DNA from: Gemmatimonas sp.
GTDB taxonomy: Bacteria; Gemmatimonadota; Gemmatimonadetes; Gemmatimonadales; Gemmatimonadaceae
DNA length: 64,000 nucleotides
Assembly: GCF_027531815.1 (NCBI RefSeq)
Contig: NZ_JAPZSK010000001.1
Coordinates: 124,001-188,000, forward strand
Reading direction: 5' to 3'
The position numbers and the translations under genes are program-made. Shown here piece by piece: positions 1,524 through 30,311 of this stretch. Position 1 is the stretch's first letter. Every line of letters begins with the position of its first letter. The notes below the pieces were generated by a model, which ran no database searches, was not told the DNA's origin, and was given only the letters and a program-made list of their open reading frames with translations.

Positions 1524-2741
1524 TTACGCCGCGACGACCGCCGACGCCTCGGCGCGCGCACCGCGACGGCGCCAGGCCAGGAGGCGACGCAGAGAGAGCA
1601 GGAGGCCGGTGACCACCAGCACCGAGGCCCCCAGCGACACGATTCCGGCGAGCGTCTGCCCCCAGAAACCGAGGACCTCGCCGGTATGCGTGAAGCGCAT
1701 GATGTTGCGCACCTGACGGCCCGTGGTGAGCGAGTCGAACGGCTGCCACGTGGTGGGCTCGCCACGGCGCGACAGGGTGAGCGTGGCCCGCTTGGTGGGT
1801 TCCCCACCCATGCCGCGATCGATCGTGTAGACGAGTGGCGCGTCGGCGGCCTTGGGCCAGGCCAGCGACATGGCGCGCCAGTCGGGCATGCGTTCGGCGG
1901 CCACCGCGTACACGTCGCCTACCAGCGGTGTCGGCGCGGGGGCAGGTCGTGTGCCGGTGGCGGTTCCGGTGGCGGTTCCGGTGGCGGTTAAGGTGGCGGT
2001 TCCCGCGGCGGCGCCCGCGGCCCCCTCCGGCGAGCGCGGCGGCGGTGCCTCGCCCACCGCCTGGTACACGAGGTCACTGGCCCACGGGAAGGAGATCACC
2101 GTGGCACTGGCCACCACGAGGGCGAGCGGGACGGCACTCCAGATGCCGATGACGTTGTGCCAGTTGAAGTCACGCGCCTTGCCCGTGAGCCCCCGCCGGA
2201 AGAGCAGCACGCTGCGCACGGCGCTCCAGGTGAGCTTGCGCGGCCACCAGAGGATCATGCCGGTGAGCACGAGCACGAGGAACGCCATGTTGGACCACCC
2301 CGTGATGGCCTTGCCGGTGGCGCGGTCGTCGTCCTTCATGGCGAGGTAGCGATGCCACTCGGTGGCCACACTGAACACCTTGCGCATGGCCACGCTGCCG
2401 GTGCCCACGACCTCGCCGGTGTAGGCGCTCAGGTACTGCCGCCCCTCACGGCCGAACTGCACTTCGACCGGCATCTCGGCGCCGTTGCGCCAGACAACCG
2501 TGGTGGGCGCCTTGCCGCCGCGCGCGGCGACGAGGGCCAGCAGCGAGTCGGGGGCAAGGCGCACCGCGCCCGGTGTGGGCGGCCCGGCCTCGACGCCGCG
2601 CAGGTCCGCCCAGAGGGTCATCTGCTTCTGGTAGGTCAGCAATACCCCGGTGACCGACATGATGAGCACGACCGCCCCGGCGACGACGCCGGAAACGAGG
2701 TGGGTCCAGAAGAGGAGGGGGCGGAGCGCGCGCATGATCAT
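1524..2741 (-). CDS. PepSY-associated transmembrane protein
   Basis: 405 residues of the PepSY_TM family, inner-membrane proteins often found with siderophore and iron uptake genes and in some cases linked to ferric-siderophore reduction. The N-terminus has the typical [21 protein letters not shown] membrane segment, then a soluble PepSY region (about 60-150), paired membrane segments near 150-215 and a last one near 365-385. Between about 235 and 265 is a Thr/Gly/Ala low-complexity insert encoded by a 12-bp tandem repeat at 1963-2010. ATG codons at 2741 and 2735 are both possible. A Fur-like palindrome lies four bases before the first, and no ribosome-binding site fits. Iron-responsive control is therefore likely but inferred. 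Confidence 0.88.
1963..2010. repeat. 12-bp tandem repeat inside the PepSY gene
   Basis: The plus strand repeats GGCGGTTCCGGT-like units about four times with small changes. In the gene, on the minus strand, this gives an alternating TGTA peptide in the loop between membrane segments. The length is a multiple of three, so copy-number change would keep the frame. Confidence 0.7.
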
Positions 2742-2744
2742 AGA

Positions 2745-2759
2745 TGAGAATAGTTCTCA
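2745..2759. promoter_or_regulatory. Fur-like operator before the PepSY gene
   Basis: TGAGAATAGTTCTCA is a near-perfect palindrome: TGAGAA, three bases, then TTCTCA. It matches the 7-1-7 layout of Fur boxes, and TGAGAATNATTCTCA is a common variant. It sits immediately upstream of the start codon of the PepSY gene, so a bound regulator would block transcription start or early elongation. Iron dependence is inferred from the motif and the gene family. Confidence 0.65.
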
Positions 2760-2799
2760 GAGACTGTTATCGGAGGATAAGGGGAATTGCCGACCGCGT

Positions 2800-3290
2800 C
2801 AATCGGGATTGACGGGGAGACGCGGGGAACGAGGGGGCGCGGGGAGGCCCCGGGGACAACGCGCGGAGGAACGCGCGGAGGAACGCGCGATCGGGGACGC
2901 GTTGGCGACGACGCGTTGGCGGGAACGCGTTGGCACGGACGCATTGGCAATGACGCGGACACCAACGCCGACACCAACGCCGACACCAACGCGGACACCA
3001 ACGCCGACACCAACGCCGACACCAACGCCGACACCAACGCCGACACCAACGCCGACACCAACGCCGACACCAACGCCGGCGCAGCCGCCCCCCGACCCCG
3101 ACCCCAACCCACGTAGTTGCCGTGCGTCGGTGCCCGCGTCGGTGCCCGCGTCGGTGCCCGCGTCGGTGCCCGCGTTGGCGCCCGCGTGGCCCCGCGTCGT
3201 TGCCACCGCGTCCGTGCCAACGCGTTTCCGCCAAAGCGTGGTCGCCAATGCGTCGTCGATCGCGCGTGGTCCCCCGCGTAGTTTCCCTAG
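2800..3290. repeat. large GC-rich inverted repeat with inner tandem arrays
   Basis: This 530-base intergenic stretch, between divergent PepSY and patatin genes, is all repeat. Outer arms near 2870-2958 and 3196-3290 are inverted copies of each other: the words TCCGTGCCAACGCGTT and CGATCGCGCG appear on the right arm and in reverse complement on the left. Inside them, 2958-3077 holds ten copies of a 12-bp unit (GACACCAACGCC). 3124-3186 holds four to five copies of GTCGGTGCCCGC, which is roughly the reverse complement of that unit. The whole could fold as a long cruciform or RNA hairpin. Long open frames through it, such as Gly-Val repeats, are composition artefacts. No gene is seen here. Confidence 0.85.
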
Positions 3291-18354: not shown

Positions 18355-19758
18355 ATGACCAACAACGACGAGACGCTGCTTCCCGACCCGCTCCCCCCCG
18401 AGCGGCGTGGCTGGCGCACCGCCGACCTCACGCGCGCGGCGCTGACGGTGCTGGCGGTGTGGTTCGGCCTGCAACTGCTCTGGTCGGTACGCTCGCTGGC
18501 CATTCTCGTCTTCCTGGCGACGCTCTTCGGTGTGGCCGTGGCCCGCGGGGTCGATTACCTCGAGCGGTTCCGCCTTCGCCGCGGCATCGCGTCGGCGCTC
18601 ATCGTGCTGGGGACGCTGGGGGCGATTGGCGGGGTGCTGGCCTTGACGGCCCCCACGCTGGTGGAACAGGGGCGGCAGCTGCAGCAGGAGTTTCCGGCGG
18701 CCGTGACCAAGGTGCAGACGTGGATCGACAGCAAGCGCGGCGGCCTGCTGGGGTCGCTCATTTCCACCGCCGCCGGCACCGGCACTGGCACCGGCACGAC
18801 GGTGGACTCGCTGGCCGTGGTGGCGCCCCCCGGCGGGGCTCCTATGGTCGGGGTGGCGGGGCCGGCCGGTGCCACCACCGGGGGGAGCGTCGCGCCCACG
18901 ACAGGCGCCGGCGCCCCGGCTGCGGCCAACGCGTCCGGCCCGGCGGCGACCGAGTCGCCCACGGACGCGATCAAGCGCCGCCTCAGCGACGGATTGGGGA
19001 GTGTCAGCAAGTACCTCTTCTCGTTCGTGTCGAACACGCTGGCGGCCATCACCGCCTTCGTGCTGCTGATCTTCCTGGCCATGTACATCGGCGCCGAGCC
19101 GGACGTGTACCGCGGGTGGATGCTGGCGATGGTGCCGGCCACGTCTCGCGCGCAGACGCGCGTCGTGCTGGCCGAGATCTCGAAGGTGCTGCGCAAGTGG
19201 CTGGTCACGCAGTTGGTGGCCATGGCCGTGATCGGCACGGTGTCGTATGTGGTGCTGCTGCTGCTTGGCGTGAAGGCGGCCTTTGCCCTTGGCTTCATCG
19301 CGGGGCTGCTCGAGTTCATCCCCACAGTGGGGCCGCTGCTCAGCGCCATCCCGGCGGTACTCATGGGCTTCGTCGACTCGCCGGAGAAGGCGCTGGCGGT
19401 GGCCATCGCCTACTGGGGGATTCAATTCGTCGAGAACAACCTGCTCATCCCTTTCCTCATGCGTGGGGAGATGGACCTCCCGCCGGCGATCACCATCGTG
19501 GCCCAGACGCTCATGACGCTGGTATTCGGCTTCCTTGGCCTCATGGTGGCCGTGCCGCTCACCGCGGCGGTGCTCGTGCCGCTCCGGATGATGGCGGAGC
19601 GGGAGAACGCGCGGGAGAAGCTGCTGGTGCGCAGCAGCAAGGCTCGGCAGGATCTGATGCGGGCGGAGATCAAACCGGAGGTCGTGATGGGAGAGGCCGA
19701 CCGTGGACCCATGGTGGAAGCCGGCGACGCGCCCCGCGCACCGGTGTCTCCGCCATGA
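18355..19758 (+). CDS. AI-2E family transporter (PerM-like)
   Basis: 467 residues. The family has about eight membrane segments; some members export autoinducer-2 or act as Na+/H+ antiporters. Here the segments near 30-95 are followed by a soluble insert (about 115-210) with an Ala/Gly/Pro/Thr-rich stretch, and then the conserved C-terminal half with GLLEFIPTVGPLLSAIPA (about 313-330) and QFVENNLLIPF. The cargo is unknown. ATGA overlaps tie it to the two following genes. Confidence 0.87.
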   Translation: MTNNDETLLPDPLPPERRGWRTADLTRAALTVLAVWFGLQLLWSVRSLAILVFLATLFGVAVARGVDYLERFRLRRGIASALIVLGTLGAIGGVLALTAPTLVEQGRQLQQEFPAAVTKVQTWIDSKRGGLLGSLISTAAGTGTGTGTTVDSLAVVAPPGGAPMVGVAGPAGATTGGSVAPTTGAGAPAAANASGPAATESPTDAIKRRLSDGLGSVSKYLFSFVSNTLAAITAFVLLIFLAMYIGAEPDVYRGWMLAMVPATSRAQTRVVLAEISKVLRKWLVTQLVAMAVIGTVSYVVLLLLGVKAAFALGFIAGLLEFIPTVGPLLSAIPAVLMGFVDSPEKALAVAIAYWGIQFVENNLLIPFLMRGEMDLPPAITIVAQTLMTLVFGFLGLMVAVPLTAAVLVPLRMMAERENAREKLLVRSSKARQDLMRAEIKPEVVMGEADRGPMVEAGDAPRAPVSPP

Positions 19759-22688: not shown

Positions 22689-23102
22689 CTACCCCTTCAC
22701 GACCTGGGGGCGAAAATACGGCTCGAGATAGCGCAGCAGGTCTTCCACGGTGCGCACCGACGTCTTGAGCGCGTCGAGCTCCTGGGCGCGCGGCAGGCGG
22801 GCGCCGGCGCGATCGGCGATGACCAGCACGGCGTCCTCGAGATCGAGATCGGCAAGTCCGAAAACGCGGGCGAGGTCGTCGGTCGGATTGACGATGTACT
22901 GCGGTTCCTGCGCCCCGTGCCGCTCGGCGAGGTAGGCATACACCTGCGCCAGCAGATTCTCGGGGTAGCGGCCGCGGAACGCGTCGCGGAACCGAGAGAG
23001 CCCGTCCCGCTCGATGGATTGGCGGTTCATGCGACTTGCCCGGGCCAGCGCAAAGAGCCCCAGCAGCAACACCACAATGGCTACCGAAACGGACAATCGC
23101 AC
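22689..23102 (-). CDS. hypothetical membrane-anchored protein
   Basis: About 137 residues from a GTG at 23102. A single membrane segment (VSVAIVVLLLGLFALARA) is followed by a soluble, acidic, helical region. The end (LDLEDAVLVIADRAGARLP to VEDLLRYLEPYFRP) vaguely resembles the helices of an acyl-carrier-type fold, but no DSL phosphopantetheine motif is present. I do not recognise the family. ATG at 23183 is an alternative start and adds 27 residues without clear features. It may be co-transcribed with the M23 and yhbY genes. Confidence 0.55.
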   Translation of the reverse strand: MRLSVSVAIVVLLLGLFALARASRMNRQSIERDGLSRFRDAFRGRYPENLLAQVYAYLAERHGAQEPQYIVNPTDDLARVFGLADLDLEDAVLVIADRAGARLPRAQELDALKTSVRTVEDLLRYLEPYFRPQVVKG

Positions 23103-23296
23103 TACCGCAGCACCCGTGGCAAAAGTGAGATGCGTGTCGCGGCCACTACCGACGAAGCAGCCATTCGGGGTCGCGAGCCTCATCGCTCGCGAACGGCTCG
23201 GTCCGGACGCCGCCCGCGAAAACGCTCCGCATACTCTACACCGCGGGACGATTTGTGGAAACTCCCGCCTCCATTCGCCTTGCCATTCGTGCACAC

Positions 23297-23310
23297 TTTC
23301 GTTGACGAAA
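23297..23310. promoter_or_regulatory. palindromic operator over the sufR promoter
   Basis: TTTCGT-TG-ACGAAA is a perfect palindrome with a two-base centre. It overlaps the -35 hexamer TTGACG (23302-23307). A regulator bound here would block RNA polymerase. The obvious candidate is SufR itself, which is known in other bacteria to repress its own suf operon when loaded with an Fe-S cluster. Confidence 0.6.
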
Positions 23311-23329
23311 TAGAATGCCGAGCTATATT
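23302..23329 (+). promoter_or_regulatory. sufR operon promoter
   Basis: TTGACG (23302-23307), 16 bases, then TATATT (23324-23329). The -10 ends six bases before ATG at 23336, so the mRNA should begin at the start codon. This decides the sufR start against the upstream ATG at 23315, which lies inside the promoter. Confidence 0.75.
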
Positions 23330-23335
23330 GTCGGC

Positions 23336-24036
23336 ATGGAGGACGTCGTTGGGGCGCTTGGGGGATTTCGCGGGGTTCGTGCCGATTTGCTGGTCGCGCT
23401 GCGCAAGGCGCAGCCGCTCACCGCGCACGAACTCGGCGAGCAGTTTGGCCTGACCGCCAACGCGCTGCGCCGGCACCTCAAGGCACTCGAGGAGGATGGG
23501 CTCGTGCGCTACGAGCGGGACGTGCGTGGCGTGGGGGCCCCGGTGTTCGCCTACTCCCTCACAACCGGCGGGGAAGCACTCTTTCCGCGGTCGTATGTCC
23601 AGGTGTTGGCCACGGCGCTCGAAGCGTTACGGACCCATACGGGCGAGCAGGCCGTTGAGGCGGTGTTGGAGGCCGAGTGGCGTCGGCTGGCGGATGAAGC
23701 CGGGCCGGTCCTCGAGGCGCTGCCCTTGGAAGAGCGGGTGCCGCTGGTGGCCGAGCTGTTGACGGCCAAAGGGTACATGGCGGAGGTCGTGTCGACCTCG
23801 CCGGAGCGCGGCGTGGGTGCGGGGACGAGCGAGGCACCGCGCGTCACGCTCCGCATCCACAACTGCGCGATGCGGGAAATCGCCGAACGGTTTCCGCAGG
23901 CGTGTGCAGTGGAAGAAAAGTTCGTGGAGCGACTGCTGGGTGTCCCGCTCGTGCGCCAGGCGCACCGGCTGGGCGGCTGCGGTCACTGTGAATATGGCGT
24001 GTCAGGTCACCCTTCGACGGTGAAACAGGAGCAGGC

Positions 24037-24040
<4 letters not shown>
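23336..24040 (+). CDS. sufR: SufR-type iron-sulfur-sensing transcriptional regulator
   Basis: 234 residues. The N-terminal winged helix (about 10-75) contains [21 protein letters not shown] and [11 protein letters not shown]. The C-terminal half carries the likely cluster ligands: [15 protein letters not shown] and then GGCGHC, i.e. Cys-x12-Cys followed by C-x2-C, as in SufR proteins. It is first in the suf operon, its stop overlaps sufB by four bases, and a perfect palindrome covers its own promoter. It most likely represses the operon when Fe-S supply is adequate. Confidence 0.9.
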
Positions 24041-25470
<1,430 letters not shown>

Positions 25471-25605: not shown

Positions 25606-26355
25606 ATGCTGCAGATCACCGACCTCCACGCCTCCATCGACGGCAAGCCCATTCTCAAGGGCATCTCCCTCACCGTGAACGCCGGCGAAGTGCACGCCGT
25701 CATGGGCCCCAACGGGTCGGGCAAGAGCACGCTCGCCCAGGTGCTCGCGGGGCATCCCGCCTACGAGATCACCGGCGGCGAGGTGCTCTACCAGGGAGAG
25801 AACCTCCTCGAGATGGACGCCGAGGTGCGCGCCCAGCATGGGGTGTTCCTCGCCTTCCAGTACCCGGTGGAAATCCCGGGCGTGAGCAACGCGTACTTCC
25901 TGCGTGCGGCCTACAACGAGATCCGCAAGGCGAAGGGGCTCGAGGAAGTGGATCCCATGGAGTTCCTCGACCTGGTCGAGGAGAAGCTCAAGCTGGTGGA
26001 CATGGATGCGTCCATGCTCAACCGCTCGGTGAACCAGGGCTTTTCGGGCGGCGAGAAGAAGCGAAACGAGATCCTGCAGATGGCAGTCCTGCAGCCCACG
26101 CTCAGCATCCTCGACGAGACCGACTCCGGGCTCGACATCGATGCGCTGCGTATCGTGGCGGAGGGCGTGAACGCGCTCAAGCGCCCCGACAACGCGAGCA
26201 TCGTGGTGACACACTACCAGCGCCTGCTCAACTACATCGTGCCCGACTACGTGCACGTGCTGGCCGGGGGCCGCATCATCAAGAGCGGCGACAAGTCGCT
26301 GGCCCTGGAACTCGAAGCCCGCGGGTACGACTGGGTGCTGGAGACGGTGGCGTGA
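25606..26355 (+). CDS. sufC: Fe-S cluster assembly ATPase SufC
   Basis: 249 residues. An ABC-type ATPase: Walker A GPNGSGKST (about 34), a Q-loop region FQYPVEIPGVSNAYFLR (about 85), the signature SGGEKKRNEILQM (about 146), Walker B and the following LSILDETDSGLD (about 166), and the H-loop His in VVTHYQRLL (about 205). It powers cluster assembly on SufBD. Its stop overlaps the sufD GTG by four bases. Confidence 0.97.
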   Translation: MLQITDLHASIDGKPILKGISLTVNAGEVHAVMGPNGSGKSTLAQVLAGHPAYEITGGEVLYQGENLLEMDAEVRAQHGVFLAFQYPVEIPGVSNAYFLRAAYNEIRKAKGLEEVDPMEFLDLVEEKLKLVDMDASMLNRSVNQGFSGGEKKRNEILQMAVLQPTLSILDETDSGLDIDALRIVAEGVNALKRPDNASIVVTHYQRLLNYIVPDYVHVLAGGRIIKSGDKSLALELEARGYDWVLETVA

Positions 26356-27668
26356 CCACGGGGCTGCGATTTGCCGAACAGGCGGTGGAAGCCTCGGTGG
26401 CTGACGCGCCCGGCTCCATCAAGGCGCTGCGTGCCGCGGGAGCGACAGCCTTCCAGACGCTCGGCTTTCCCACCACGCGCAATGAGGACTGGCACTACAC
26501 CAGCGTCTCGGCCATCGCGTCGGCGCAGTATGTGCCGGCCATGGGCCGTCCGGCGCACACCGGTGCGGTCACGGCGGCATCACTGGCGCCGTTCACCTTC
26601 GGCGCCGACTGGCCGCTGGTGGTGTTCGTGAACGGGCGGTTCGCGCCATCGCTCTCCACGCTGGGGGCGCTGCCGGCCGGCATTCGCGTGCTGGACATGG
26701 CCACGGCGTCGGCCGAGCAGCCCGAGCTGCTCGGGCGCGTGCTCGGCACCGCGGCGCCGGCCGACCGTGACGGCTTCACCGCGCTCAACGCGGCCTTCGC
26801 CGGCGAGGGCACGTTCATCCACGTGGCCAAGGAGATGGTGATCGAGCATCCCATCCACCTGCTGCACGTGATGGACGAGGCGGGCGCCGGTGTCATGAGC
26901 CACCCGCGGCACGTCATGGTGGTGGAACGCCACGCCAAGGCGAGCGTGGTGGAAAGCTACGTGAGCCTCGCCGACGTGCCGTACTTCACCAATGCGGTCG
27001 TGGAGGCCTTTGTGGAAGACGGGGCCACGCTCAACGTGGTGCGCATCCAGCGCGAGGCCCGCCAGGCCCACCATGTGGGCACCGTGGAAGCGCGCCAGGG
27101 GCGGGACAGCCACTTCATCACGTTCACCTTCCAGACCGGCGCCGCGCTGTCGCGCAGCAACGTGTACACGGTGCTGGGCGGCGAGGGGTGCGGCTGCACC
27201 ATCAACGGGCTGTACATGCTCGACGGGGAGCAGCACGGTGACCACCAGACGCGCGTGGAGCACGTGCAGGAGAATTGCTTCAGCCGCGAGGCGTACAAGG
27301 GGCTCATCGACGACGCCGCGCACGGCGTCTTCAACGGCAAGGTGTACGTGCACCCCGAGGCGCAGAAGACCGACGGCAAGCAGACCAACCACACGCTGCT
27401 GCTCTCCGAGAAGGCTCAAATCGACACCAAGCCGCAGCTCGAGATCTTCGCCGACGACGTGAAGTGCACGCACGGCGCCACAGTGGGGCGCATGGACGAA
27501 ACGTCGCTCTTCTATCTCAAGAGCCGCGGTGTGGGCAAGGTGCTGGCCAAGCAGTTGCTCATGTACGCCTTTGCGGCGGACGTGCTCGAGACCATCGAGC
27601 ATCCGCTCATCGTGGAAGCGCTCGAGAAGCTGACTGTGGAGCGGTTCACGGGGAGTTCGAGTCACTGA
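26352..27668 (+). CDS. sufD: Fe-S cluster assembly protein SufD
   Basis: 438 residues. Partner of SufB in the SufBC2D scaffold. Recognised by FPTTRNEDWHYTSVS near residue 38, GCTINGLYMLDGEQHGDHQTRVEH (about 280), the KVYVHPEAQKTDGKQTNHTLLLS segment and LEIFADDVKCTHGATVG (about 363) with the conserved Cys and His. GTG start in GTGA overlap with sufC. A 122-base gap with a hairpin follows before sufU. Confidence 0.96.
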   Translation: MTTGLRFAEQAVEASVADAPGSIKALRAAGATAFQTLGFPTTRNEDWHYTSVSAIASAQYVPAMGRPAHTGAVTAASLAPFTFGADWPLVVFVNGRFAPSLSTLGALPAGIRVLDMATASAEQPELLGRVLGTAAPADRDGFTALNAAFAGEGTFIHVAKEMVIEHPIHLLHVMDEAGAGVMSHPRHVMVVERHAKASVVESYVSLADVPYFTNAVVEAFVEDGATLNVVRIQREARQAHHVGTVEARQGRDSHFITFTFQTGAALSRSNVYTVLGGEGCGCTINGLYMLDGEQHGDHQTRVEHVQENCFSREAYKGLIDDAAHGVFNGKVYVHPEAQKTDGKQTNHTLLLSEKAQIDTKPQLEIFADDVKCTHGATVGRMDETSLFYLKSRGVGKVLAKQLLMYAFAADVLETIEHPLIVEALEKLTVERFTGSSSH

Positions 27669-27712: not shown

Positions 27713-27785
27713 ACTGACCACTAAGGACTTCTTTGGGACACGAGTCTTTAGTGGTAAGTGAAAGTCTTCAGTCATAAGTCTTTCT
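27713..27785. repeat. intra-operon hairpin repeat between sufD and sufU (copy 3)
   Basis: ACCACTAAGGACT (27717-27729) pairs with AGTCTTTAGTGGT (27743-27755), 12 of 13 positions, loop 13. The segment is AT-rich for this genome and shares ACTGACCACTAA with the element between sufB and sufC. A start codon at 27758 inside it is ignored in favour of ATG 27791. Confidence 0.75.
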
Positions 27786-27790
27786 CCCCC

Positions 27791-28246
27791 ATGACCGACC
27801 TCCAGGAGCTGTACCAGTCCGTCATTCTCGACCACAACCGGAAGCCGCGCAATTTTGGCGCGCTTCCGGAGGCGAATCGGGAAGCCGACGGCAAGAACCC
27901 GCTGTGCGGGGACGAGGTGCACGTGGCGCTGGTGCTCCAAGGCGACACGATCACCGACGTGAGGTTCACCGGCCACGGGTGCGCCATTTCGAAGGCCTCG
28001 GCGTCACTCATGACGGCGGCCGTGAAGGGCAAGACCCGAGCCGAAGCCGAGGCGCTCTTCGAGCGCTTTCACACGCTCGTGCTGGGCAAGGACGCCGACG
28101 CCGGCAAGGATCTCGGGCAGCTGGTGGTATTCAGCGGCGTCTCGCGGTTCCCGGTACGCGTGAAGTGCGCGTCGCTGGCGTGGCACACGCTCAAGGCGGC
28201 GCTCGAAAGCGAAGCCTCGGACCCGGCCGCCGTCAGCACCGAGTAG
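27791..28246 (+). CDS. sufU: sulfur acceptor / Fe-S scaffold protein SufU
   Basis: 151 residues. SufU is a zinc protein that accepts persulfide sulfur from SufS. The key residues are present: NPLCGDEV (Cys and Asp, about 40), GHGCAIS (Cys, about 64) and VKCASLAW (Cys, about 127). LYQSVILDHNRKPRNFG at the N-terminus is typical. The ATG at 27791 fits the family length; the upstream ATG at 27758 lies in the repeat. A second, shorter SufU-like gene closes the operon. Confidence 0.95.
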   Translation: MTDLQELYQSVILDHNRKPRNFGALPEANREADGKNPLCGDEVHVALVLQGDTITDVRFTGHGCAISKASASLMTAAVKGKTRAEAEALFERFHTLVLGKDADAGKDLGQLVVFSGVSRFPVRVKCASLAWHTLKAALESEASDPAAVSTE

Positions 28247-28252
28247 CCGCGC

Positions 28253-28648
28253 GTGGCGTCTGACGATGGCGTGCGCACGGAACCCGAGGCGGGCGTAGGC
28301 GGTACGTGGGAACGGGTGGCACGTGCGGAGGAGGTACCCACGGACTTCCCGCTCGCCGTGACGCTGACGGATGGGCGCCGGGTGTGCCTCGTGCGTGTGC
28401 ACCACGAGGTGTTCGCCGTGGAAGACCGGTGTCCGCACCGCGATTTCCCGCTGTCCGGGGGTGATGTGGCCGAGGGGTGCCTCGAGTGTCCGTTTCACGG
28501 GGCCCGCTTCGATGTGCGTACCGGCGCCTGCGTGCAGGGGCCGTCGGAGGGGGATGCCGTGGTGGTGTACCCGGTGATGCAGGTGAACGGGGTGGTCCTG
28601 GTCGGGGGGGCGAACCGACGACCCGAAACGCGAAGTCACGACCCATAA
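28253..28648 (+). CDS. Rieske-type [2Fe-2S] protein
   Basis: 131 residues. The cluster motifs are CPHRDFPLS (C-x-H, about 61) and CPFHGARFD (C-x2-H, about 79), as in small NirD- or BphF-type Rieske ferredoxins. The rest is the usual beta-sandwich. It starts with GTG seven bases after sufU and precedes sufS. Position inside the suf operon suggests it supplies electrons to, or is an early client of, cluster assembly; this is inference. The N-terminal 25 residues are poorly conserved. Confidence 0.9.
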   Translation: MASDDGVRTEPEAGVGGTWERVARAEEVPTDFPLAVTLTDGRRVCLVRVHHEVFAVEDRCPHRDFPLSGGDVAEGCLECPFHGARFDVRTGACVQGPSEGDAVVVYPVMQVNGVVLVGGANRRPETRSHDP

Positions 28649-28668
28649 CTGATCAGTTCAGGGTACAG

Positions 28669-29892
28669 ATGCTCTCCTCGCTCGCTCCTCGTTCCGAGTT
28701 TCCGCTGCTGGCCGCCAACCCCGGCCTGCACTACCTCGACTCCGCGGCCACGTCGCAGAAGCCGGCGGTGGTCCTGGACGCCATTCGCGACTTCTACGAG
28801 ACGGCAAACGCCAACCCGCACCGTGGGGCGTACGCGCTGAGCGCGCGCGCCACCGACCTGTACCATGAGGCACGGGCCACGGTCGCGCGCTTCGCCGGCG
28901 TGGCGGATGCCGACACGGTGATCTTCACGCGCGGCACCACCGAGGCGATGAACCTCGTGGCCTCCAGCTGGGGACGCGCGAACGTGCAGGCCGGTGACGA
29001 GATCGTGATCACGGCGCTCGAGCACCATGCGAACTTCGTTCCGTGGCAGCAGCTCGCGCTGGCGACCGGGGCCACGCTGCGCATCGTGGAGTTGCGCGAC
29101 GATCAGACCATCGACCTCGACCAGCTGCGCGCGCTCGTGAATACGCGCACCAAGCTGGTGGCGATCACGCACGTCTCGAATGCCGTGGGGGCGATCACGC
29201 CGCTCGAGGATGTGGTCCATCTCGTGCGCGCCCGGTCGGCCGCCGTCATCGTGGTGGACGGGGCCCAGGCCGTGCCGCATCTGCCGGTGGCGTTCGATGC
29301 CCTCGACATCGACTTCTACGCCTTCAGCGGCCACAAGCTGCTGGGGCCCATGGGCATCGGCTGCCTCATCGGGCGGCGCGCGCTGCTGGAGAAGATGCCG
29401 CCGTACCAGTATGGCGGCGACATGATCGAGTGGGTGCGCGACACCGACAGCACCTGGAACGTCATTCCGCACAAGTTCGAGGCGGGAACCCCCAGCGCCG
29501 CCGATGCGGTGGCACTGGCGGCCGCCATCCGCTACCTCGAACAGCTGGGCATGGCGAACGTGCGGGCACATGAGGTGGCGTTGCTGGAGCGGGCGGAGGC
29601 CGCGGTGCGCGCGCTCCCCGGGGTCACCGTCTACGGGCCACCGCCCGCGCAGCGCAGCGGCGTCCTGAGCTTCTCACTCGCCGACGTGCATCCGCATGAC
29701 CTGGCCACCATTCTCGATCAGCACGGCGTGTGCATTCGCGCCGGGCACCACTGCGCGCAGCCGCTCATGAGGCGGCTTGGCGTGAGTGCCACCGCCCGCG
29801 CCAGCTTCTACGTGTACAGCGACGAAGCCGACGTGAATGCCCTGGTGGGTGCGCTCACCGCCGCGCAGCAGCTGTTCGCCACCGTCGAATGA
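28669..29892 (+). CDS. sufS: cysteine desulfurase SufS
   Basis: 407 residues. A PLP-dependent class V aminotransferase-fold enzyme that takes sulfur from cysteine as persulfide. The start of the fold reads LHYLDSAATSQKP (about 21), RGTTEAMNLVA contacts the cofactor, the Schiff-base Lys is in FYAFSGHKLLGPMG (about 226), and the active-site Cys is in IRAGHHCAQPLM (about 364). HHCAQP marks the SufS group rather than IscS. Its stop overlaps the second sufU-like gene. Confidence 0.96.
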   Translation: MLSSLAPRSEFPLLAANPGLHYLDSAATSQKPAVVLDAIRDFYETANANPHRGAYALSARATDLYHEARATVARFAGVADADTVIFTRGTTEAMNLVASSWGRANVQAGDEIVITALEHHANFVPWQQLALATGATLRIVELRDDQTIDLDQLRALVNTRTKLVAITHVSNAVGAITPLEDVVHLVRARSAAVIVVDGAQAVPHLPVAFDALDIDFYAFSGHKLLGPMGIGCLIGRRALLEKMPPYQYGGDMIEWVRDTDSTWNVIPHKFEAGTPSAADAVALAAAIRYLEQLGMANVRAHEVALLERAEAAVRALPGVTVYGPPPAQRSGVLSFSLADVHPHDLATILDQHGVCIRAGHHCAQPLMRRLGVSATARASFYVYSDEADVNALVGALTAAQQLFATVE

Positions 29893-30311
29893 CGCCGAGC
29901 GTGGCGCGCATTGCCGCCATTTACCAGGACGCGCTGCTCGCGCATCACCGGGCACCGCACAACCGCCGCGAGCTCCCACACGCCACCGCCACGGCGTCGC
30001 AGCGCAACCCGGTGTGCGGTGACGACATCACGGTGGGCGTGCGCATTGCGGACGGTGTGGTCACGGAGATCGCCTTCTCCGGGCGCGGCTGCTCCATTGC
30101 CACCGCCAGCGCCAGCATGATGACCGACGCGGTGTGCGGGCTGCCGGTGCAGGAGGCGCTCACGCTCGGTGAGACCGTTGATCGCATGCTCAGCGGCGGC
30201 GGGGTGGAGTTGCCGGAGGTCCTCGCGCCATTGCGCGGGGTCGCACCGTTCGCGGGACGGCACAGCTGCGCGCGCATGCCGTGGCAGGCGCTGCGCGACG
30301 CCCTCACGTAA
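29889..30311 (+). CDS. second SufU-like (NifU N-terminal type) protein
   Basis: 140 residues. A paralogue of the SufU gene 1.6 kb upstream. It keeps all ligands, NPVCGDDI (Cys and Asp), GRGCSIA (Cys) and RHSCARMPW (Cys), and the IYQDALLAHHRAPHNR start. The sequence between them differs widely from SufU, and it is 11 residues shorter. ATGA overlap with sufS means strict co-expression with the desulfurase, so this copy may be the real SufS partner. It ends in an eight-base convergent overlap with the nitrilase gene. Confidence 0.9.
   Translation: MTPSVARIAAIYQDALLAHHRAPHNRRELPHATATASQRNPVCGDDITVGVRIADGVVTEIAFSGRGCSIATASASMMTDAVCGLPVQEALTLGETVDRMLSGGGVELPEVLAPLRGVAPFAGRHSCARMPWQALRDALT

Follow-up and report, generated by a model that had tools for sequence, protein, structure and literature searches.

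The suf genes of this Gemmatimonas strain appear to be controlled by an autoregulated operon promoter, in which a SufR dimer would occupy a 24-26 bp dyad laid over the -35 hexamer and from which sufR would be transcribed as a leaderless message; from sequence comparison we assign this reading a probability of about 0.8. The promoter lies in a window of 64,000 nucleotides (the whole stretch of DNA that was analysed), drawn from a genome assembly of 4,307,374 bases in 27 contigs (G000). The features that carry the argument are visible in the aligned sequences themselves, namely the dyad and its conservation, the geometry of the promoter, the position of the start codon, the cysteine pattern of the regulator and the order of the genes (Table 1).

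The regulator has an N-terminal winged helix-turn-helix domain (PF12840, 39.9 bits against a cut-off of 27; PF01022, 35.6 bits against a cut-off of 22) and aligns with profile positions 4-206 of the 208 of TIGR02702, the cyanobacterial SufR model (101.6 bits, E 4.6e-29), a score below the curated cut-off of 178.8 for that family. A sequence search of the PDB returned one weak winged-helix match. Its only cysteines stand at positions 177, 190, 215 and 218; all 114 aligned orthologues share Cys177, Cys190 and Cys218, and 98 have Cys215, and the C-X12-C-X13-C-X14-C pattern of cyanobacteria, as printed in the accessible text of PMC8593673, does not occur in the protein. Identification as a SufR is drawn from the CX12CX27C cysteines together with the operon context, and by analogy the protein would bind an Fe-S cluster and repress suf. 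The closest named relative that we found, a Gemmatimonas metagenome-assembled genome (L007), encodes a SufR that is 97% identical.

Inspection of the downstream region shows that sufR is the first gene of a row with the order sufR-B-C-D-U-(Rieske-like)-S-U, to which the Rieske-like protein and the second sufU also belong. The overlap between the sufR stop codon and the sufB ATG recurs in 74 of 113 orthologous loci, with 24 further loci left unresolved by our script, and of the 89 sufB starts that were resolved, 67 have a Shine-Dalgarno-like core in front of them.

Table 1. Features of the sufR promoter and suf gene row, in window coordinates.
Feature	Position	Strand	Remarks
Likely SufR operator, 26-bp dyad ATTCGTGCAC-ACTTTC-GTTGACGAAA	23285-23310	.	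Conservation in family and match to published site
Dyad left half TTCGTGCAC	23286-23294	.	Degenerate in window
Dyad spacer ACTTTC	23295-23300	.	6 bp
Dyad right half GTTGACGAA	23301-23309	.	Exact
Palindrome TTTCGTTGACGAAA of the original prediction	23297-23310	.	Spans the final four bases of the spacer, the right half-site and a single flanking base; its own symmetry is not conserved
-35 hexamer TTGACG	23302-23307	+	Within right half-site of 26-bp dyad
Upstream in-frame ATG of longest ORF	23315-23317	+	Lies in the stretch separating -35 from -10; not accepted as start
-10 hexamer TATATT	23324-23329	+	Most family rows have TA...T here
Inferred transcription start, A of ATG (leaderless)	23336	+	6 bp after -10; conserved gap; genome-wide peak at 6 bp
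sufR	23336-24040	+	234 aa; winged helix and CX12CX27C (Cys177, 190, 218)
sufB	24037-25470	+	ATG overlaps sufR stop (ATGA); AGGAG at 24027-24031
sufC	25606-26355	+	
sufD	26352-27668	+	
sufU	27758-28246	+	
Rieske/ferredoxin-subunit-like protein	28253-28648	+	All matches below curated cut-offs
sufS, longest ORF	28477-29892	+	Start probably internal; match to the family runs from residue 72
Second sufU, longest ORF	29730-30311	+	Family match begins at residue 63

For comparison across genomes, we collected orthologous loci (L007-L133, 127 in number) and removed identical promoter sequences, leaving 114; these loci represent the better matches only (30 + 80), matches occurring in 212 of 395 genomes. 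Palindromes were counted in 112 upstream sequences (L010 and L095 were too short), and the family comparison set 65 family-level upstreams against 48 others, with L010 again left out and some of L007-L023 placed in the family by likeness. One record in this range, L023 (CALQGY020000045.1), is titled Candidatus Kuenenia stuttgartiensis but carries a Gemmatimonas-type sufR locus whose promoter is the same as that of G218, a genome of the window's genus; its label is probably wrong.

The original prediction had described a promoter with the -35 hexamer TTGACG, a 16-bp spacer, TATATT and, six base pairs further on, the ATG at 23336, overlain by the 14-bp palindrome TTTCGTTGACGAAA; all of these letters are as it gave them. 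The two hexamers together match the consensus at 10 of 12 positions, and a promoter scan of 22700-24400 returned two promoter-like sites, both using the -35 at 23302-23307, against a mean of 0.1 in shuffled sequence. Recognition by SufR of the palindrome alone, centred on the -35, would draw on its perfect 6+2+6 arms (TTTCGT/ACGAAA, flanking an asymmetric central TG), on its position and on its single exact copy in the genome. A perfect palindrome of this form nevertheless arises in 2.4% of shuffles of the 110 nt before the sufR start, and among the 112 orthologous upstreams such palindromes number 3 against 4.1 in shuffles, which is no enrichment; TTTCGTTGACGAAA itself is exact in one of the 112, the window, and L007 has TTTCGTTGACGAAC at this position, with imperfect symmetry. 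Because the palindrome also omits a conserved left half, we rejected it as the operator and regard its recognition in isolation as highly improbable. As delimited, the 14-bp palindrome is near chance level, which neither the promoter nor the longer dyad is. In the genome search that had been proposed for the palindrome, TTTCGTNNACGAAA occurs exactly once without mismatch and five further times with one mismatch, against three for a control pattern. The original prediction is accordingly supported in part: a dyad does lie over the -35, but an operator centred on 23303.5 gives way to a likelier one of 24-26 bp centred on 23297.5, whose portion from 23285 to 23296 is upstream of the region first marked.

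Alignment of the family-level upstreams reveals this longer dyad directly. One 26-bp element, with the consensus ATTCGTNNAC-N6-GTTGACGAAT and a lowest score of 23.9 bits, aligns in 61 of the 65, although rows within a genus are related and these are not 61 independent observations; columns 2, 9, 18 and 19 are invariant in the aligned rows. When 9-bp arms with at least 8 complementary pairs are counted, N6 is the dominant spacing, present in 23 of 65 upstreams as against approximately 0.8 in shuffles, and exact CAAC-N6-GTTG occurs in 23 of the 61 rows. The window retains an exact GTTG, with GCAC in the left half, so that two of the four CAAC letters are changed. Taken by itself, its dyad pairs at 7 of 9 arm positions, a value equalled in 11% of shuffles; the window's own dyad is thus unremarkable, and the case for an operator is made by its relatives. 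In a gapless comparison with L007, 48 of the 55 bp before the ATG are identical, as against 25% of the next 105 bp upstream.

A search of the genome with the pattern TTCGTNNAC-N6-GTTGACGAA found one place with no mismatches, before sufR, and four others with two; no other site with at most one mismatch exists elsewhere in the genome. The same pattern occurs with at most one mismatch in 26 of 30 genomes of the genus, some of the matches lying elsewhere than at sufR, as do both of those in G351. At L169, ~36 bp of the sufR operator region recur exactly at positions 1500-1535 (G268:C89, ~12254), the sufR copy being at 18850. The second copy is found 6.6 kb ahead of the true sufR promoter, beside M23-peptidase-like neighbours as in the window, and is followed by a minus-strand ORF (1629-3014); either an inserted segment has divided the region here or the copy is an artefact of assembly. 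In the window, GTG 23294 on the minus strand was considered as the start of a divergent gene overlapping the operator and was rejected, since the likely L169 homologue of this ORF starts at the equivalent of ~23102.

The SufR site reported in the available text of four papers is CAAC-N6-GTTG (PMC8593673, PMC13421787, PMC4755962, PMC11995493), and the 26-bp consensus dyad is an extended form of it. We asked how readily the element could instead serve another dimeric regulator, of the Fur, IscR, OxyR or MarR type, with SufR acting elsewhere. Such an assignment would accommodate the departure of the window's left half from CAAC, and also the retention of a SufR without the element by relatives beyond the family and by one genus within it. 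It leaves unaccounted for the agreement of core and spacing with the site reported, in the text accessible to us, for cyanobacteria and Streptomyces, the position of the sole genomic copy at one mismatch or fewer immediately before sufR, and the fact that in one clade changes in the half-sites accompany changes in SufR, a correlation confounded by ancestry. We consider another regulator unlikely and retain SufR as the probable ligand of the dyad.

Variation within the family offers a further view of the element. Paired changes at positions 6/21 and 7/20 (T-A to C-G, C-G to A-T) all fall within one clade of nine rows and hence perhaps represent one event. Nine loci (L051, L052, L053, L054, L056, L059, L060, L064 and L068) carry the right half-site GTTTGCAAA, or CTTTGCAAA in two of them, in place of GTTGACGAA, with the left half changed to match. 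SufR proteins of the GTTTGCAAA clade differ at residues 49 (T), 52 (V/L/I) and 66 (Q/L); these are candidates for setting the specificity, with shared descent as a confounder. The 26-bp element is absent from four of the 65 family-level upstreams, those of L048 and of one genus (L095, L122 and L129) whose SufR proteins are 38-45% identical. The 48 upstreams from outside the family all score below the family range (best 17.4), an N6 dyad with at least 8 of 9 pairs is found in 4 of 48 against 0.6 in shuffles, and a few relatives (L090, L097 and L107) keep AACAAAAGTRTTG forms. A different shared promoter element resembling TTGACAATCCCGAG replaces the dyad in relatives outside the family (for example L084-L087, L098, L103 and L113) and in L095, L122 and L129; its form in L095 is TTGACTATCCCGAC, and a CACCAA or similar run often lies upstream of it.

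Having delimited the operator, we turned to the start of sufR, for which the longest ORF would begin at ATG 23315 and the original prediction had chosen ATG 23336. The latter codon follows the first T of TATATT by 12 bp. To score relatives, we chose the best match to a -10 hexamer at 15-20 bp beyond the -35 and then the first in-frame start codon, with L048 left out and the hexamer of L079 not credible; the 64 scored members comprise 61 and the three loci of the odd genus. The resulting gap is 6-8 bp in 56 of the 64, and 6 bp in the window. Among the 61, it is 6 bp in 22 members, 7 in 30, 8 in four, 9 in two, 4 in one and 3 in two, and in both members with a gap of 3 a GTG precedes an ATG at 6; in L095, L122 and L129 it is 27, 11 and 26 bp. 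Across other families and the odd genus, 28 of 34 scored upstreams (31 + 3) have a gap of 5-11 bp, and 17 more lack TTGAC. The gap varies by single bases, so a reading frame entering from upstream would be broken. An in-frame stop codon lies upstream of the start in 35 of the 61 rows; 8 have an in-frame ATG that reads through to the start uninterrupted from within 60 nt upstream, and 25 have an upstream start codon of any kind.

ATG 23315 lies between the -35 and -10 hexamers and therefore cannot be on a transcript from the sufR promoter, and with an upstream in-frame ATG in only 8 of 61 rows we rejected it as the start. A message with a 5' UTR, produced from a promoter further upstream or translated from 23315, would be compatible with the open frame from that codon, with a possible second promoter of another type, and with the longer distances in the odd genus (27 and 26 nt in L095 and L129) and in L048, where ~60 nt separate a TATATT from the sufR start, unlike in neighbouring rows. 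Since the scan of 22700-24400 found no other sigma-70-type site, and since the narrow distribution of gaps and the scarcity of uninterrupted upstream frames are hard to reconcile with a start further 5', we judge this arrangement improbable. The start at 23336, a correction relative to the longest ORF, is upheld by the conserved gap, and the further claim that sufR lacks a 5' UTR is probably right, judging from that gap and from a genome-wide signal.

This signal was measured in a sample of 864 kb of the same genome (L178-L217 and the window), in which a crude ORF caller gave 631 genes. Before candidate ATG codons, TAnnnT stands 25 times at a gap of 6 bp, compared with an average of 3.15 over gaps of 20-59 (sd 1.67, maximum 7); GTG codons in this sample show no such peak (6 against 4.6), and neither do TTG codons. 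At gaps of 5-8 the motif is seen 50 times where 12.6 are expected, an excess that would make about 6% of the called genes leaderless. A second genome of the genus, G019, also has the peak (11 against 2.23), and in G198, from another family, it is not clear (4, 5 and 4 at gaps 6-8 against a mean of 2.8). No -35 enrichment accompanies the genome-wide -10 set, with ATG and GTG pooled (18% with at least four matches, against 17%). Leaderless genes have been defined by TANNNT ~12 bp before the start, according to the available text of PMC3160421, a placement of the -10 that is shared by the window's sufR and fits the signal in G000. The string 'Gemmatimon' is absent from the texts of PMC3160421 and PMC5397173.

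From these features we infer binding and repression, their dependence on a cluster, the site of transcription initiation and a single common transcript, in the following form. Where Fe-S clusters are plentiful, a SufR dimer that probably carries them would bind both half-sites of 23285-23310. In sigma-70 promoters, region 4 of sigma contacts the -35; SufR spanning -51 to -26 relative to the inferred start would cover this hexamer and block that contact, and, because the right half-site contains the -35, bound SufR would exclude RNA polymerase. Repression would extend to sufBCD-sufU-sufS by read-through and the ATGA stop-start overlap. On loss or reduction of the clusters, SufR would leave the dyad, a release step taken from cyanobacterial work as recounted in the accessible text of reviews. 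The freed promoter would then be transcribed from the A of ATG 23336, or from within a base or two of it, to give a leaderless sufR, and sufB would be translated from the Shine-Dalgarno-like sequence inside sufR. Of the 'self-repressing switch' originally proposed, the compact promoter and the repressor-type dyad are borne out; self-repression itself is suggested by a protein of the SufR type, by agreement with the published site and by conservation.

Comparison with known systems, as far as the available texts describe them, places this locus among several relatives. Cyanobacterial SufR proteins (Synechocystis and others; PMC8593673, PMC13421787, PMC4755962, PMC7058544) likewise have a winged helix, a tie to suf, an N6 dyad and a GTTG half. 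Their sufR gene is divergent from sufBCDS, whereas in the window sufR leads the row; moreover, the half-sites of the window's family extend to TTCG/CGAA, and the window protein falls short of the TIGR02702 cut-off and lacks the printed four-cysteine pattern. In Mycobacterium tuberculosis, which belongs to a different phylum, Rv1460 is also the first gene of a suf operon, its three cysteines have the same spacing (12, 27), and sufR has a leaderless mRNA with a start that was moved inwards, by +73 as compared with +21 from the longest ORF in the window (PMC6034842, in its accessible text). The pairing of SufR with a leaderless, inwardly corrected start is thus not new. Cysteines C203, C216 and C244 of Rv1460 are required for it to replace the wild-type gene, yet in an M. 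smegmatis reporter the cysteine variants were equally able to repress, a finding that counts against simple control by the cluster; a separate transcription start was reported 17 bp before sufB, for which the authors allowed degradation (PMC6034842). That text contains neither 'CAAC' nor 'inverted repeat'. The sufR promoters of Streptomyces avermitilis and Corynebacterium glutamicum carry CAAC-N6-GTTG (GAAC-N6-GTTG in C. glutamicum), and the S. avermitilis dyad overlaps the -10, with its last G as the transcription start, in contrast to the position of the window dyad on the -35 (per the accessible text of PMC11995493).

Taken as a whole, the locus looks like a known kind of self-controlled suf switch in a new group of bacteria. 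Titles and the beginnings of abstracts in the open-licence literature yielded neither a SufR operator nor leaderless genes for Gemmatimonadota, and the dyad accordingly provides a concrete candidate operator for a phylum in which none was found in that literature, together with a fix on the likely start of sufR. The palindrome illustrates how one half of a longer dyad can give rise to a short symmetry that catches the eye, and from the leaderless signal it would seem that the annotation of starts calls for care in a few percent of Gemmatimonas genes. More speculatively, Gemmatimonadaceae may possess an operator on the -35 rather than on the -10 or start as in Streptomyces, a site and DNA-binding residues of SufR that change together (GTTGACGAA to GTTTGCAAA, with T49, V/L/I52 and Q/L66), AUG-only leaderless starts as a regular feature of the genus, and a leaderless sufR set against a Shine-Dalgarno-led, coupled sufB; we put this forward tentatively, as possible but doubtful. 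If true, the separate translation routes of sufR and the operon could tilt the ratio of SufR to SUF proteins when initiation factors change.
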